NCBI GenBank assembly: GCA_027064525.1
Contig: JAMOPJ010000032.1
Coordinates: 1 to 64,000, forward strand
Direction of reading: 5' to 3'
DNA length: 64,000 nucleotides
Source of the DNA: Archaeoglobaceae archaeon
GTDB taxonomy: Archaea > Halobacteriota > Archaeoglobi > Archaeoglobales > Archaeoglobaceae
The notes below the pieces were generated by a model. The model saw nothing but the letters and a program-made list of their open reading frames with translations, was not told where the DNA came from and searched no databases. This document shows positions 1,495-40,875 of the stretch, piece after piece (position 1 is the stretch's first letter; each line of letters starts with the position of its first letter). A program made the translations under genes and the position numbers.

Positions 1495-2378
1495 TGAAGT
1501 CTGGTAGTGTTATGGATTTAGCTACAAAGGATGTCAAGACGATTCCACCCCGCTCTACGATAATGAACGCTCTGAAGACGATGATAAATTGCAACTTCAG
1601 GAGGATGCCGATTGCGGATGCTGGAACTAAAAGGCTCGAAGGCATAATCTCTGCAACGGACTTGGTGAACTTCTTTGGAGGTGGAGATAAGCACAAGATT
1701 GTGGTTGAGAGATACAACGGAAACCTTTCTGCGGCTGTCAACGAGGATGTTGATGAGATAATGGTTAGAGATGTCATTACAGTAGATTATACAGCTTCTT
1801 GGCAGGATGCTTTGGAGCTGATGCTTGAAAAGAGGGTTGGTGGATGTCCGATTGTGGATGATGATAACAGAGTTGTCGGGATTATCACAGAAAGGGACAT
1901 TCTAAAGTATTTAGCCAATCAGACGAGGCTGGACGGATACGTCAGGGATTACATGACCGTTGGCGTCATAACTGCGGAGCCGGACATGACCATAGAGGAA
2001 GCTATGAAGCTCATGATCTCCAAAAAGATCAGGAGATTGCCCGTCATAAGGGATAGTGTTCTGTTGGGATTGATAACGACAAGGGAGATTCTGAGATACT
2101 TCGGGATTGGAGAGGCTTTCAGAATGCTCGAAACAGGAAACGTGAAGGATGCTTTGCAGAAACCTCTAACAACTCTACTTTCGAACGACGCAATCATGTT
2201 AAATAAAGAACCGCTCACGTTTGAAAGCAGGGATAAAATATCAGATGTCGTTAGGAGAATGGTTGAAGCTGGAGTCGGTGTGGCTTTGATCGTTGACAAC
2301 GGCAGACTTGAAGGAATAATCACCGAAAGAGATCTTATGAACTTTTTGTATTCAAAAGTTAACGAAAATATTAAATAA
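1494..2378 (+). CDS. Four-CBS-domain protein
   Basis: The 294-residue protein consists almost wholly of four CBS repeats. The signatures GIISATDL, GIITERDI, GLITTREI and GIITERDL mark the end of each repeat. There is no catalytic domain, so it is probably a nucleotide-sensing partner for another protein. The chosen start is the ATG at 1494, which overlaps the TGA of the preceding CBS gene by one base (TGATG). A GTG one codon earlier is possible. The overlap shows co-translation with the zinc-ribbon CBS protein, and the two may form a heteromer. The target is unknown. Confidence 0.85.
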   Translation: MKSGSVMDLATKDVKTIPPRSTIMNALKTMINCNFRRMPIADAGTKRLEGIISATDLVNFFGGGDKHKIVVERYNGNLSAAVNEDVDEIMVRDVITVDYTASWQDALELMLEKRVGGCPIVDDDNRVVGIITERDILKYLANQTRLDGYVRDYMTVGVITAEPDMTIEEAMKLMISKKIRRLPVIRDSVLLGLITTREILRYFGIGEAFRMLETGNVKDALQKPLTTLLSNDAIMLNKEPLTFESRDKISDVVRRMVEAGVGVALIVDNGRLEGIITERDLMNFLYSKVNENIK

Positions 2379-2396
2379 TTTTATTTTAGAATATTT

Positions 2397-3545
2397 ATGA
2401 AGTTCGTTGCTGAAGCTTTGAACCTCTCTCCCATAGCAACGAAGAGGCTTGAGGAGAAAAACATCCTTAGGCAGGCTTTTATTAGGCATCCCTTTTTTGG
2501 AGATGTCATCGAAGCTTTAAAGCTTGATAGAAAATTCGGAGAATTTGAAGAAGGGACGCTTATAGCCAGAACTGTCAATGGTTTGGAGATCGTTAGGGGT
2601 TATCCCAAGATCAAGAGGGCTTTGACCTTATACCCAACGATAAAGAAACACTTCAGAGGAGAAGTAGTTTTGGAGGAGAAGATGAACGGATACAACGTCA
2701 GAATAGTCATGTTCGGAAAAAACATCTATGCGATCACGAGAGGCGGATTTATCTGTCCATACACAACTGAAAAAGCCAGAAGGCTTATAAATCCAGATTT
2801 TTTTAAGGATTATCCAAATCTTATGCTTTGTTGTGAGGCCGTTGGCGAAGAATCTCCGTTTGTGCCAAAAGACATCTACGGCATAAAAACTATCGATTTC
2901 TACGTTTTTGATGTTAGAGACAGGAAAACAAACGTTGCTTTACCAATAAAAGAGAAGGAGAAACTTGCAGAAGAATACGGATTTAATTTAGCCCCGATCC
3001 TTGCAGAAGTTCACGTTTCTAAAGCGCATGAAGTCGCTAAGGACGTGATCAAAGAATTAGGCAAAAAGGGGAGAGAGGGAATAGTCATAAAAGATCCCAA
3101 GATGAAAAGACAGCCGATAAAATACACAACGAGCGAATCGAACTGCTCAGATCTGAGCTTTGCCTTCAGGTTCTTCGGAGAATACGGTAAAGACTTCATG
3201 TTTTCGAGAATTGTTAGAGAGGGTTTTCAGGCTTTTGAGTTCGATGAGAGTGATGAAGAATTCAAGCAGAGGTGCTTAAGGCTTGGAGAAGCTATTCTGA
3301 AAGCTATGGTTGAAAGTATTAGGGAAGTTGGGGAGGGAAGAAAGGTTTACGATAAGATGAAGTTGAGATTTTACGATCTTGAAGTCTTCGAGCTCTTTAA
3401 GGAGCACGTCAGAAGGATGGGTGTGAGTGCCGAGTTTTCAGAACCGATCGAAGAGAATGGTAGTTACGTCGTTTGGTTTTACAGATATATGAAATCGACT
3501 ACGGATAAGATAGACCACATACTGCGGGGAAACCTATGGCAGTAG
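2397..3545 (+). CDS. ATP-dependent RNA ligase, archaeal Rnl3 (Pab1020) family
   Basis: The 382-residue protein carries the nucleotidyltransferase motif EKMNG with the predicted adenylated lysine at K95, followed by YNVR. Other ligase motifs are visible: an ITRGGF stretch, LCCEAVGE (motif IIIa-like), EGIVIKDP (motif IV) and a downstream lysine-rich KYTTSES stretch (motif V). Length and motif order match the homodimeric archaeal RNA ligases that join or circularise RNA with 5'-phosphate and 3'-hydroxyl ends. The biological substrate of this family is unsettled. The DUF1464 gene overlaps its 3' end by 10 bases. Confidence 0.9.
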   Translation: MKFVAEALNLSPIATKRLEEKNILRQAFIRHPFFGDVIEALKLDRKFGEFEEGTLIARTVNGLEIVRGYPKIKRALTLYPTIKKHFRGEVVLEEKMNGYNVRIVMFGKNIYAITRGGFICPYTTEKARRLINPDFFKDYPNLMLCCEAVGEESPFVPKDIYGIKTIDFYVFDVRDRKTNVALPIKEKEKLAEEYGFNLAPILAEVHVSKAHEVAKDVIKELGKKGREGIVIKDPKMKRQPIKYTTSESNCSDLSFAFRFFGEYGKDFMFSRIVREGFQAFEFDESDEEFKQRCLRLGEAILKAMVESIREVGEGRKVYDKMKLRFYDLEVFELFKEHVRRMGVSAEFSEPIEENGSYVVWFYRYMKSTTDKIDHILRGNLWQ

Positions 3546-34386: not shown

Positions 34387-34506
34387 CTTTGCTAGTCTCT
34401 TGAGTAAAGCATCGAATTCTTTCATACTTTGCTTTAAAGCTCTCTCATATTCTGGTCTCAACACCTTTTCATTCTTCTTTTTCTTTTTTCTTCTTTCTTC
34501 TGGCAT
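34381..34506 (-). CDS. 41-residue lysine-rich ORF, possible Doc partner
   Basis: A short frame starting MPEERRKKKKKNEKVLRPEY and ending in an amphipathic helix (ALKQSMKEFDALLKRLAKL). Its ATG at 34506 lies inside the 3' end of the Fic gene (38-base overlap), so it would be translated as the second gene of that operon. Fic/Doc toxins need an inhibitor, and none is visible upstream, so this may be it. Alternatively it is chance coding in an A-rich stretch. Confidence 0.4.
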   Translation of the reverse strand: MPEERRKKKKKNEKVLRPEYERALKQSMKEFDALLKRLAKL

Positions 34507-34897
34507 CCTTAACACCTACTTTTTTAGTATTAGACTTTAACCATTTAACTATTTCTTCGGTATCTTTTCCTTTCATCGCTAACTCCAGTATGAACTCTAA
34601 AATCTCATCTTCGCTTGCTGTAAATTTGTATCCTTTGGCTTTTAAAATTGTATCAGCTACTTCAAATCCAGTTCTTTTGTTTCCATCAACAAACGGATGA
34701 CCACTTATGATTTCCCTCATTAACACTGCTACTTTCCAAAATATCGACTTTCTTGGGTGAATATTTACCCAATCCACAGCAAACTCAAGTATTCCTCGAT
34801 TAAGTATGCCAGATTCTCCACCATATTTTTCAATTATCCTCTCATGAATCTCTATGATTTCTTCTACAGTAATTAGAGGCTTTCTTCTCCTAGCCAT
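34469..34897 (-). CDS. Doc-type Fic domain protein (toxin-like)
   Basis: The 142-residue protein has the Fic active site HPFVDGNKRT near residue 69, preceded by the Doc-like opening VEEIIEIHERIIEKYGGESGILNRGILE. Doc enzymes phosphorylate EF-Tu; Fic enzymes adenylylate targets. The conserved His, Asp/Gly-Asn and Arg are intact, so it may be active. The C-terminus is lysine-rich. No Phd-like antitoxin lies upstream (34898-35055 is empty). It belongs to the tRNA-integrated element. Confidence 0.85.
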   Translation of the reverse strand: MARRRKPLITVEEIIEIHERIIEKYGGESGILNRGILEFAVDWVNIHPRKSIFWKVAVLMREIISGHPFVDGNKRTGFEVADTILKAKGYKFTASEDEILEFILELAMKGKDTEEIVKWLKSNTKKVGVKDARRKKKKEKEE

Positions 34898-37564: not shown

Positions 37565-37684
37565 ACTCTCAGTCCTAATTCAGGATAAATTAATCTTATG
37601 CCGTAATAAAAATAAAAAATATAATTACTCTCTCAGAAAACTTTATAATGTTCGACACTGAAATCAATTATGGTGATTATAATC

Positions 37685-38380
37685 ATGGAAAGAGTTTCAA
37701 CCGGTGTTGAGGGTTTAGATAGGATGCTTAACGGTGGTTTGATAAAAGGAAGAACGTATCTCGTTAAAGGATGCCCCGGTGCTGGGAAAACTATCCTTTC
37801 GATCCTGTTTCTGCTTGATGGTGCTAAGAGGGGTGAGAACGTTCTGTTCATCTCGCTCGCTGAAGGTGTTGACGAGATAAGGGAAAACATGAACTACTTA
37901 GGACTGGATGTTTCGGGAATAGAGTTCATTGACGCATCGCCTACGGGAGATAAGACGATATTTGGGGATCTGTTTTTTACGAGCTTCGATATAGATACTC
38001 AGGGCTTTAAGTCGATGCTTGAGGCAAGGTTTGACAAATCAGCTCCTTCGAGGCTCGTGATAGATTCAATAACAATGCTGAGAGTCTCGGCTAAAAGCGA
38101 GATGGAATACAGGAGAGATCTTCTCAGTTTAATCGGAATGTTCAAGAGGTTCAACGTGACGACCTTCCTCACATCAGACATATACGAGAAGAACGTTGAG
38201 GATTATCTCGTAAGCGGGGTGATCGAACTACACATGATAGACATCAAGGGCAAGATCTTGAGAGGAGTAAGGATTGCCAAGATGAGGGGAATCGAATTCG
38301 ACGATACCATGAGGCCCTACAAGATAGTGAAGGGTGGAATGGAGGTCTATAGCGATCTGAGTCTGTTCGAAGAGAGGTGA
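37685..38380 (+). CDS. KaiC/RadA-like ATPase (first gene of a five-gene operon)
   Basis: A 231-residue single-domain RecA-fold ATPase. It opens MERVSTGVEGLDRMLNGGL and has Walker A GCPGAGKT near residue 30, followed by SLAEGVDEIRENM and a Walker B-like SRLVIDSITML. Domain layout matches archaeal KaiC-like signalling ATPases. The ATG at 37685 is chosen over a GTG-start five codons upstream. Four genes follow with gaps of 13 bases or overlaps, so they form an operon. Confidence 0.85.
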   Translation: MERVSTGVEGLDRMLNGGLIKGRTYLVKGCPGAGKTILSILFLLDGAKRGENVLFISLAEGVDEIRENMNYLGLDVSGIEFIDASPTGDKTIFGDLFFTSFDIDTQGFKSMLEARFDKSAPSRLVIDSITMLRVSAKSEMEYRRDLLSLIGMFKRFNVTTFLTSDIYEKNVEDYLVSGVIELHMIDIKGKILRGVRIAKMRGIEFDDTMRPYKIVKGGMEVYSDLSLFEER

Positions 38381-38393
38381 TTTAGAAGAGATT

Positions 38394-39083
38394 ATGAAGG
38401 TAGAGATAGTCTCGGACGGTATGAAGATGATCAAACTTCCCAAGCCTCTGAACTTGGTTTTGAATAGGATAGTTGAAGGAGAGGTCGTTCTGATTGAATA
38501 CAACAGCCTATCGAACATTGACTTGCTTCCGCTCAAGCTCACATCGATAGGAAATTCTGTCTTCGTTGAGATAGGCGACAAGCTTCAAGTCAAGCTATAT
38601 GCCCTAATAAACGCTCTCAAAGATACGGATCCTGAGTTGCTCGATGCTATAAGGAAGACTCCCATAATAAGCGTTTCAAATTTCGCTATGAGTTTTCCCG
38701 GATTCAACATAGTGAACGTTCCGCTCAACGAGATCACGAAGATGATTTCGAAGTTCTACTCCTTCATGAAGGACAGCCGAGAGAATCATCTCCTCGTGAT
38801 ATGCGGAATCGAACAGATTGCCCTCCACTTCGACATACAGAACTTCTTGAGAGAATTCGCCGGGCTTAAGGTTGCTCTGCCGAGCGTAACCTTTGTAGGA
38901 TTTTTGAACTACGATGCCGTCGACAAGAGAGATCTCGCTATATTCGAAAGCATGGCCACCACGGTCGTTAGAATAGAGGGTGCAGTGGATATGGAACGCA
39001 AGAAAATCAGAAAATACATATATCCTATAAAATCTATAAATCCGGTTAGGTGTGATGTTGCGGAGATAAAGCATGAGATTTGA
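38394..39083 (+). CDS. Degenerate RecA-like protein without P-loop
   Basis: A 229-residue protein with the alternating strand-helix pattern of the preceding KaiC-like ATPase. Where the Walker A would be there is EGEVVLIEYNSL, lacking GKT/S; a Walker B-like strand HLLVICGIEQIA remains. It resembles DUF257-type archaeal proteins in style, but I cannot confirm membership. It probably partners the active ATPase. It overlaps the next gene by 11 bases. Confidence 0.55.
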   Translation: MKVEIVSDGMKMIKLPKPLNLVLNRIVEGEVVLIEYNSLSNIDLLPLKLTSIGNSVFVEIGDKLQVKLYALINALKDTDPELLDAIRKTPIISVSNFAMSFPGFNIVNVPLNEITKMISKFYSFMKDSRENHLLVICGIEQIALHFDIQNFLREFAGLKVALPSVTFVGFLNYDAVDKRDLAIFESMATTVVRIEGAVDMERKKIRKYIYPIKSINPVRCDVAEIKHEI

Positions 39084-39678
39084 CGTTTTGAAGTTTGACG
39101 AGATCGTTGGAGATATCGCGGGCGGGAGGGTTATCTTAATCGAAACCGTAGGAGATCTCGGCTTGAGGTTAGCTTTGGGATTTTTGAAGAACGCGATAAA
39201 GGAGGGTATTGGCGTTTTTGCGATAGTCCCAAAGAGGTTGAAGGACGATCTCAAAAAGGAGCTGAATGCTGCTAAGATTCTAACTCCTAACGACGAATTC
39301 ACGTTGCACGAGCTTTTTACAATATCCCTAGCAATAAAGAAGCTTGAGGAGAGAGTCGGGTTGATAGATATCCTCCAACCCCTTTTGATAATTCATTCTC
39401 CGGAGAAAGTTTATCAGCTTTTTCAGGAGATATGCGACATAGTTAGAGAGAAGAAGGGTATCCTCATTGCTATAATTGATAAGAAGCTTGCAGATTCGAA
39501 AATTTTGGCTATGTTCGAGAATGAGGCGGACTACGTTATAGATATAGAGGAGATTGTAGAGGGCCTGAGGATAAGAAGAGGTATCAGGGTCAAGAAGAAT
39601 CCGAACAAGCCACCCAGCAAGTTTTATGAGCTCATAGTCAACGAGCACGGGATGAGGTTGGGTGAGCAGATTGATTGA
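39073..39678 (+). CDS. Second degenerate KaiC-like protein
   Basis: A 201-residue protein whose opening (AGGRVILIETVGDLGLRLALGFL) aligns by eye with the Walker A region of KaiC-like proteins but has lost the GKT. A KaiC-like C-terminus is kept: GLRIRRGIRVKKNP followed by FYELIVNEHGM. It is therefore likely a regulatory or structural paralogue. It overlaps both neighbours (11 and 17 bases). Confidence 0.6.
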   Translation: MRFDVLKFDEIVGDIAGGRVILIETVGDLGLRLALGFLKNAIKEGIGVFAIVPKRLKDDLKKELNAAKILTPNDEFTLHELFTISLAIKKLEERVGLIDILQPLLIIHSPEKVYQLFQEICDIVREKKGILIAIIDKKLADSKILAMFENEADYVIDIEEIVEGLRIRRGIRVKKNPNKPPSKFYELIVNEHGMRLGEQID

Positions 39679-40252
39679 TTTGATCATAGCCATCGAGATC
39701 GCGTTCTCCGCAGCTTTCGCTATCGTCTCAATGTATATAGCCATCTCCAACGTCATCAGACTTTGTGCGCTGGCTAAGAAGGATGCCAGAAGTGCAGGCA
39801 TAAAGGTCGGGTTCGTTCTCTTCATGATAGGCATGGCATTTCTACCGGCAGCATACATAGTCGTTTTTCAACCCACGTTTTTCCTCATCATAGTAGGACT
39901 ACTTCTGATAGGTGCGGCGATAAAGGTTGAAAAGAGCAGAAAGGTCACCTCTCTTCAGATGGCATTGAGCTCGCCCTTTTACAACGTTCCAACGCTCTTT
40001 CACGCTCTATACACGATGCTGGTAGTATACATCCTGAACGGAGTTAGGGAAAAGACGATATTTAGAGACTGGGCAGTCGAAACCTACTACAAAGTGTCAA
40101 CATGGCTTTTCGTTGGACAGCATGCACTTCTGCTCTTATTCTTTAGTCACAAAGATCTGATAATATATCATTCTCTCCTTCACATAACGGCATGGATAGT
40201 AGCGCTCTATCCCTCGATCGTCATATACGATTACATGAGGAGGTGGATATGA
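39662..40252 (+). CDS. Polytopic membrane protein A of the KaiC-like operon
   Basis: A 196-residue protein with about six hydrophobic segments and histidines in or near them (LFHALY, GQHALLLLFFSHK, YHSLLHITAW). The start is a GTG at 39662, inside the end of the preceding gene. No known family is recognised. It could anchor or signal to the RecA-like proteins. Confidence 0.65.
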   Translation: MSRLIDLIIAIEIAFSAAFAIVSMYIAISNVIRLCALAKKDARSAGIKVGFVLFMIGMAFLPAAYIVVFQPTFFLIIVGLLLIGAAIKVEKSRKVTSLQMALSSPFYNVPTLFHALYTMLVVYILNGVREKTIFRDWAVETYYKVSTWLFVGQHALLLLFFSHKDLIIYHSLLHITAWIVALYPSIVIYDYMRRWI

Positions 40253-40875
40253 TGCTCAAAATCATAGCGCTGTCCTACATATTCTTAGCGATCTCATCCG
40301 CGCTGATGCTCAAGGCAAGAAAGTTTACCAAGCTCTATCCTCTAGCCTTTGTATCCACTCTCATGTTCACCTTAGCGGCTGTAAATACGGAATATCAGGC
40401 CTACCTCGATATGATTGCGTCTATCTGCATGTATGTTGTTGTATTCACAGCGGTAAAAAACGGATTTCTTACATATAAAGGATTTAAGGCACCGTTTTTC
40501 GAAAAGAAGATTACGGCAATAGGTCTCATTTTGCTGGCGGTAGGAGTTATCTTGGGGCAGATACCACATAAATGCTTCTATATATGCGGGTTCAGATCTT
40601 TCTTAACAATAATTGTAGCGAGAATAGTATTGGCAAATACGTTCGCCATCCTAGCTCTTTCAAGAGAAAGAACACCGGTGAGGGTAGGTGATTACGAGGT
40701 TTTGATGCTCGCATCGTTTTTAATCCTCGCAGACGGTGCGATTGATATGACTCTCTACATCGCTGCGGACGTTCTGCTTAATGCAAACATAGATCCAACA
40801 CTCGTAATGTTAATAGATGTTCATCTTCTCTACACGGCATCACTTCTTTTCATGCTCACTATGCTGAGAAGGTGA
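40249..40875 (+). CDS. Polytopic membrane protein B of the KaiC-like operon
   Basis: A protein of about 208 residues with six or seven hydrophobic segments and a pair of cysteines (HKCFYICGF) near the middle. Two adjacent ATG codons (40249, 40252) follow a GAGGAGGTGG ribosome site. It overlaps the stop of membrane protein A. Its 3' end overlaps the convergent thiL gene by 36 bases. The family is unknown; its seven-segment look recalls archaeal sensory membrane domains but this is not proven. Confidence 0.65.
   Translation: MMLKIIALSYIFLAISSALMLKARKFTKLYPLAFVSTLMFTLAAVNTEYQAYLDMIASICMYVVVFTAVKNGFLTYKGFKAPFFEKKITAIGLILLAVGVILGQIPHKCFYICGFRSFLTIIVARIVLANTFAILALSRERTPVRVGDYEVLMLASFLILADGAIDMTLYIAADVLLNANIDPTLVMLIDVHLLYTASLLFMLTMLRR

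Follow-up and report, generated by a model that had tools for sequence, protein, structure and literature searches.

The window analysed here comprises 64,000 nucleotides of an Archaeoglobaceae archaeon genome (GenBank assembly GCA_027064525.1, contig JAMOPJ010000032.1, positions 1 to 64,000), and within it lie five tightly packed plus-strand genes, labelled g1 to g5 in order, which form an operon encoding a KaiC-family protein, two P-loop-less relatives of KaiC layout and two polytopic membrane proteins. The first gene, g1 (37685-38380, with an alternative start at 37670), encodes a KaiC-family ATP-binding protein of 231 amino acids. It is followed by g2 (38394-39083), encoding a P-loop-less protein of RecA/KaiC fold (229 amino acids) that profile searches found in Archaeoglobaceae alone, and by g3 (39073-39678), encoding a P-loop-less, DUF835/iKaiC-like protein of KaiC fold (201 amino acids). 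The membrane proteins are encoded by g4 (39662-40252; 196 amino acids, GTG start) and g5 (40252-40875, with an alternative start at 40249; 207 amino acids), and both belong to families that also occur in Thermococcales, that of g4 being new. All five reading frames are intact, and they are separated by a gap of 13 bases and then by overlaps of 11, 17 and 4 (or 1) bases, so that the position and spacing given in the initial annotation were borne out. An element read from the sequence at 37642-37649 (+), TTTATAAT, is likely the archaeal TATA box of the operon; a similar element lies upstream of the start region in two relatives, G002 and G004 (relatives' genomes and loci are designated Gnnn and Lnnn, and the genome of the window is G000).

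The assignment of g1 to the KaiC family is secure, with an E-value of 1.2e-45 and 156 bits against Pfam KaiC (PF06745; curated cut-off 26.6) and a match to KaiC of the PDB at 2.1e-40 in a sequence search. The protein aligns with both the CI and CII domains of KaiC, and the alignment shows an intact P-loop (GCPGAGKT), as the initial annotation had noted, together with the Walker B aspartate (Asp127) and the trans lysine and arginine (Lys199 and Arg201). In KaiC, K224(n+1) and R226(n+1) are residues of the neighbouring subunit that contact ATP across the interface, while in the CI domain E77 activates water and E78 binds the metal (PMC2777353). At the position of the catalytic E77, g1 of the window carries alanine (Ala59), the second glutamate of the pair being kept; glutamate occupies this position in 25 of the 26 proteins compared, the window protein being the sole exception, and in G004, which lies outside those 26, it is replaced by threonine. 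The proposal that g1 is an active ATPase was therefore not sustained, even though its P-loop is intact.

Ratios of nonsynonymous to synonymous substitution rates (dN/dS) between G000 and G004, which are rough because dS is high, lay near 0.06 in g2 and g3 and at about 0.07-0.08 in the two segments of g1. By this comparison g1 is under purifying selection despite the replaced catalytic glutamate. Because that residue is altered in both genomes while dN/dS is low, g1 in the genus of the window has probably lost hydrolysis but not function, and the combination of an intact P-loop with alanine at the E77 position makes ATP binding without hydrolysis the likelier activity. The g1 sequences of G004 on contigs C18 (L046, 1-192) and C12 (end of L141) are 100% identical where they are common, but about 235 bases, among them those of the P-loop, are missing from the C18 copy, which may reflect either a deletion of g1 in a strain variant or an artefact of assembly. 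The apparent internal loss of g1 in this genome is partly a matter of assembly, as the intact 5' part is found on the other contig.

The motif GK[ST] is missing from both g2 and g3, and it was present in 0 of 26 g3-type proteins. The g3 profile finds KaiC chains of the PDB at 4.5e-8 and gives a 94.8% match to the g1 family; against DUF835 (PF05763) g3 reaches 24.0 bits (E 3.7e-5), below the cut-off of 33.1, and so is related to that family without being a Pfam member. For g2, a PDB sequence search with the profile gave no usable match and the score against DUF257 (PF03192; 19.2 bits, E 0.0012) fell below the cut-off of 25, so that it is not placed in that family. Its AlphaFold2 model (predicted local distance difference test, pLDDT, 85; predicted template modelling score, pTM, 0.84) has as its best Foldseek matches FlaH/ArlH (7e-10) and KaiC CI (5e-9), and its profile matches g3 at 93-96%. 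On the evidence of sequence for g3 and of the predicted structure for g2, both are iKaiC proteins in the general sense, that is, of KaiC/RecA fold without a P-loop, in agreement with the layout that the initial annotation had ascribed to them. At the position of KaiC K224 the alignments show a lysine without exception (K199 in 26/26 g1, K175 in 26/26 g3 and K213 in 8/8 g2 sequences). Such a pattern in g2 and g3, the trans lysine retained and the protein's own P-loop lost, would be expected if these subunits served, within a mixed ring, to complete the site of an adjacent subunit.

Three RecA-fold paralogues in one operon, two of them without a P-loop, also recall eukaryotic Elp4-Elp5-Elp6, a ring of inactive RecA-fold subunits. 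The three proteins might thus form a ring for a non-signalling task, with g4 and g5 acting merely as membrane anchors, and g2 does show a weak, not significant match to Elongator Iki1/Elp5 (E 0.03). Of these three paralogues, however, Thermococcales have g1 and g3 alone, and no RNA-linked neighbour is conserved, which leaves this arrangement highly improbable.

Both g4 and g5 are hydrophobic and, as had been anticipated, polytopic, with about seven predicted helices each. With a simple script, g5 is predicted to have seven transmembrane helices (7TM) in an N-out/C-in orientation in most homologues, and g4 to have 5 to 7; the AlphaFold2 model of g4 has seven. The two proteins are very divergent (about 14-27% identity). 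A single-sequence search of 60 relatives with g5 recovered g5 itself alone, and homologues could be found only with profiles made from syntenic relatives of the gene. Neither protein reached the cut-off of any Pfam or NCBIfam family, which covers the 7TM sensor domains that Pfam contains, such as HisKA_7TM. Searches of the PDB sequences with the two profiles gave no usable match, and profile comparison of g4 with g5 detected no paralogy.

A survey of 55 Archaeoglobaceae genomes by profile searches found g4 in exactly three of them, G000, G015 and G009, each of a different genus. Strong matches to g5 occurred in these three only, and three other genomes gave weak ones (E 0.001-0.003). All three carry all of the five genes; the order in G015 is that of the window, whereas in G009 an interrupted g1 is followed by a double-domain KaiC and then by g3, g4, g5 and g2. 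The initial annotation had looked to conserved order across several genera as a sign of a complex, and the five-gene set indeed stays together in three genera of the family, with the order differing in one. In the G009 locus (L047:1740-4687) the transposase gene that splits g1 lies at 2046-2912 (-), and the first domain of the double-domain KaiC is also without the first catalytic glutamate (FAEP).

Partial versions of the set are found as well. The g1-g2-g3 arrangement is kept in G025 and, across a contig break, in G004, while g2-g3 occurs in G002 and, at a contig edge, in G001; in G002 the interval before g2 contains no g1, though the upstream region is still similar. Such patterns could mean that the operon is decaying and that, g1 catalysis having been lost, the present arrangement is a remnant of little function: g1 is missing ahead of g2 in G002, g4 and g5 are missing in G001, G002 and G004, a transposase gene interrupts g1 of G009, and the catalytic glutamate of the window protein is gone. 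The dN/dS values given above (about 0.06-0.08 for g1, g2 and g3, with the limits noted there), the five intact frames of the window and the retention of the P-loop, Walker B and trans residues in g1 speak against decay, which we consider very unlikely.

Some relatives have a g1-g3 pair alone, and in G000 itself contig C9 carries another pair of this kind, whose g1 paralogue has the glutamate that is replaced in the window protein. Close to this second pair lies a gene for an unassigned, 7TM-like membrane protein with receptor-like predicted topology (L055:2740-3354); it is homologous to neither g4 nor g5 and was not counted. Among the neighbours of related g1-g3 pairs is a gene for a CLC chloride channel with CBS domains, which directly follows the pair in G029 and is separated from it by an integrase gene in G009; in G016 a type IV pilin gene adjoins the pair (CLC and pilin neighbour genes at L053:2323-4107, L052:2497-4266 and L051:4618-5118).

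The pilin neighbour bears on a reading in which the operon is an accessory of type IV pili or the archaellum, with g1 and g3 acting on a motor in the manner of ArlH and with g4 and g5 as platform or anchor. FlaH/ArlH is the closest fold to g2, g3 matches the ArlH model at 7.5e-7, and KaiC genes are often near type IV pilus systems (PMC4858521). The scores against the ArlH model, 25 bits for g1 and 29 bits for g3, nevertheless lie far from the family cut-off of 215 bits. No pilin, ArlI or ArlJ gene stands beside the operon, where the neighbours scanned were IF-2B, AIR-synthase-like, EMG1 and others, nor are these genes regular neighbours in Thermococcales loci. A role in pili or the archaellum is accordingly judged quite unlikely.

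In the phylum to which the window belongs, an enlarged profile detected g4-type proteins in only 3 of 394 genomes sampled. Outside the family, homologues recur in Thermococci. One Thermococci metagenome-assembled genome carries g1-g3-g4, and once its sequence was included in the profile, 20 of the 115 Thermococci genomes searched gave a g4 homologue. Most of the neighbourhoods of these homologues have the core g1-g3-g4-g5 in that order, which with further loci is present at about 17 places in Thermococci, and the Archaeoglobaceae and Thermococcales proteins match by profile at 92% for g4 and 86% for g5. Because the gene set recurs in Archaeoglobaceae and Thermococci, the cluster is not due to chance, and its presence in archaea as distant as the Thermococcales makes it probable that the core set is a membrane-linked sensing switch of old origin.

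The enlarged profile detected g4-type proteins in 59 of the 115 Thermococci genomes, where some of them form a standalone branch. This standalone membrane protein (L158-L177, e.g. L170:4254-6173) occurs in many Thermococci genomes without KaiC genes, often just upstream of two FeS_assembly_P-domain genes and a rubrerythrin gene. Tandem g4-g5 duplications follow g3 in two Thermococci genomes (L122:4352-7437 and L124:3464-6563), with a further polytopic membrane protein after them. At L168:4520-6314 (G445), g3 and g4 share one frame of 407 amino acids next to a truncated g1 without a P-loop; since that g1 is truncated, the apparent fusion may be a frameshift in a decaying locus, and it was not used as support.

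The tandem duplication of g4 and g5 as a polytopic, coupled pair and the CLC chloride channel gene adjoining a related g1-g3 pair in G029 would fit a transporter or channel gated by the nucleotide state of the KaiC/pseudo-KaiC proteins, which would amount to regulation of transport with no receptor signalling. Both proteins are, however, small, strongly diverged and without a match to any transporter family, and the standalone g4 branch exists without KaiC genes. We regard a gated transporter as unlikely.

Several features of the gene junctions bear on how the operon is expressed. In every one of the 21 loci with g4, a GTG lies exactly 17 bases upstream of the g3 end, and in 20 of them the called g4 is read in the frame of this GTG. 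A ribosome site for g5, GGTGG, is embedded in the final codons of g4; in the window it forms part of a Shine-Dalgarno-like element, GGAGGTGG, at 40239-40246 (+) within the codons for Arg-Arg-Trp; the g5 start overlaps or abuts the g4 stop, and a similar site, AGGTGG or GGGTGG, is found at most g4/g5 junctions. The C-terminal RRW of g4 was discounted as a protein motif because it overlaps this ribosome-binding site. The main groups of the g1 tree recur in that of g3. Taken together, the g3/g4 overlap, the g4/g5 junction and the agreement of the trees point to a conserved, translationally coupled unit.

From these observations we infer, with a probability of roughly 0.55, that the operon encodes a membrane-linked, nucleotide-dependent switch in which g4 and g5 are receptor-like membrane subunits coupled to a mixed KaiC/pseudo-KaiC assembly. 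This assembly, a RecA-type ring or something smaller, would consist of one ATP-binding KaiC subunit (g1) and the pseudo-KaiC g3, joined in Archaeoglobaceae by g2. Having no ATP site of their own, g2 and g3 would complete and read out the site of g1 through the retained trans lysine, and a membrane signal would alter either the assembly itself or the way in which it binds a partner downstream. In the genus of the window, ATP is probably bound but not hydrolysed by g1, which would thus act as a nucleotide-gated switch in the manner of ArlH, with no ATP-driven machine involved. A more specific version, in which g4 and g5 are two new seven-helix archaeal receptor families signalling through the assembly, and hydrolysis has been wholly lost in the genus to leave a pure ATP-binding gate for the energy state, is a tentative extension, and we think it doubtful as a whole.

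Several findings weigh against a switch of this kind. No output gene is linked to the operon. Neither g4 nor g5 can be placed in a known family or fold, and the AlphaFold2 model of g4, of moderate quality (pLDDT 71, pTM 0.64), had no PDB match in Foldseek below an E-value of 0.1. Of the two trans residues, g2 and g3 retain the lysine but not the arginine. The alignment of g2 to g1 is not significant by itself, and for this reason the assignment of g2 within the KaiC alignment runs via g3. Furthermore, the sister genomes G001, G002 and G004 retain g2 and g3 without g4 and g5, and G002 has no g1 at the locus; the parts of the operon are thus not strictly interdependent. Finally, single-chain proteins of comparable design in Thermococcales have a membrane part that is not detectably homologous to g4 or g5. 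In these proteins (L159:6357-7538, L170:6281-7321 and L171:1829-2869) a polytopic N-terminal membrane region is joined to a C-terminal DUF835 domain, an inactive KaiC-like domain, and they do offer a precedent for the coupling of a membrane domain to such a domain, which speaks for the switch.

Proposed archaeal signalling hubs that combine KaiC ATPases with inactivated iKaiC partners (DUF835, MEDS) are described by Galperin et al. (2018; PMC5847659), who cite Makarova et al. (2017). As in those hubs, a KaiC-family protein is encoded alongside inactive KaiC-fold partners, and the g2 profile also finds proteins of REC-PAS-DUF835 type beside a KaiC gene in other archaea; here, however, the partners are stand-alone iKaiC proteins accompanied by a pair of polytopic membrane proteins, and REC, PAS and kinase domains are absent. 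The suggestion that no such system had been described therefore stands for the exact five-gene set within the literature searched, although Makarova et al. 2017 (mBio), outside that search, may list the neighbourhood, and fails for the class, since KaiC hubs with iKaiC partners have been published (PMC5847659).

The best fold match of g2, ArlH, is a KaiC-like switch protein in which ATP is bound but not hydrolysed (PMC8978795). The operon differs in that no archaellum genes are among the neighbours scanned, that g1 is closer to KaiC than to ArlH, and that g2 and g3 are without a P-loop, while ArlH binds ATP. Cyanobacterial KaiC of the KaiABC clock shares with g1 the P-loop, Walker B and trans residues of CI and CII. 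In contrast to it, g1 has a single domain where KaiC has a tandem pair, and carries alanine as the first residue of the catalytic glutamate pair; no KaiA or KaiB is encoded by the five genes or the scanned neighbours.

KaiC-like proteins have been proposed as archaeal signalling hubs, and the route by which membrane input reaches them is mostly unknown. A conserved operon of a KaiC protein, inactive relatives and two polytopic families offers a concrete, testable candidate for that input, and its homologues in Thermococcales place it in an order that includes genetically tractable members. With the P-loop lost in two subunits and the catalytic glutamate in a third, this stepwise loss of catalysis would put to the test whether ATP turnover is necessary for a hub of this kind at all.

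A role in anti-phage defence was discarded, as PADLOC gave just weak, generic NTPase matches. Elsewhere in the window, a gene of the Fic/DOC family (Pfam 3.1e-12) lies at 34469-34897 (-) and is possibly one half of a toxin-antitoxin pair.

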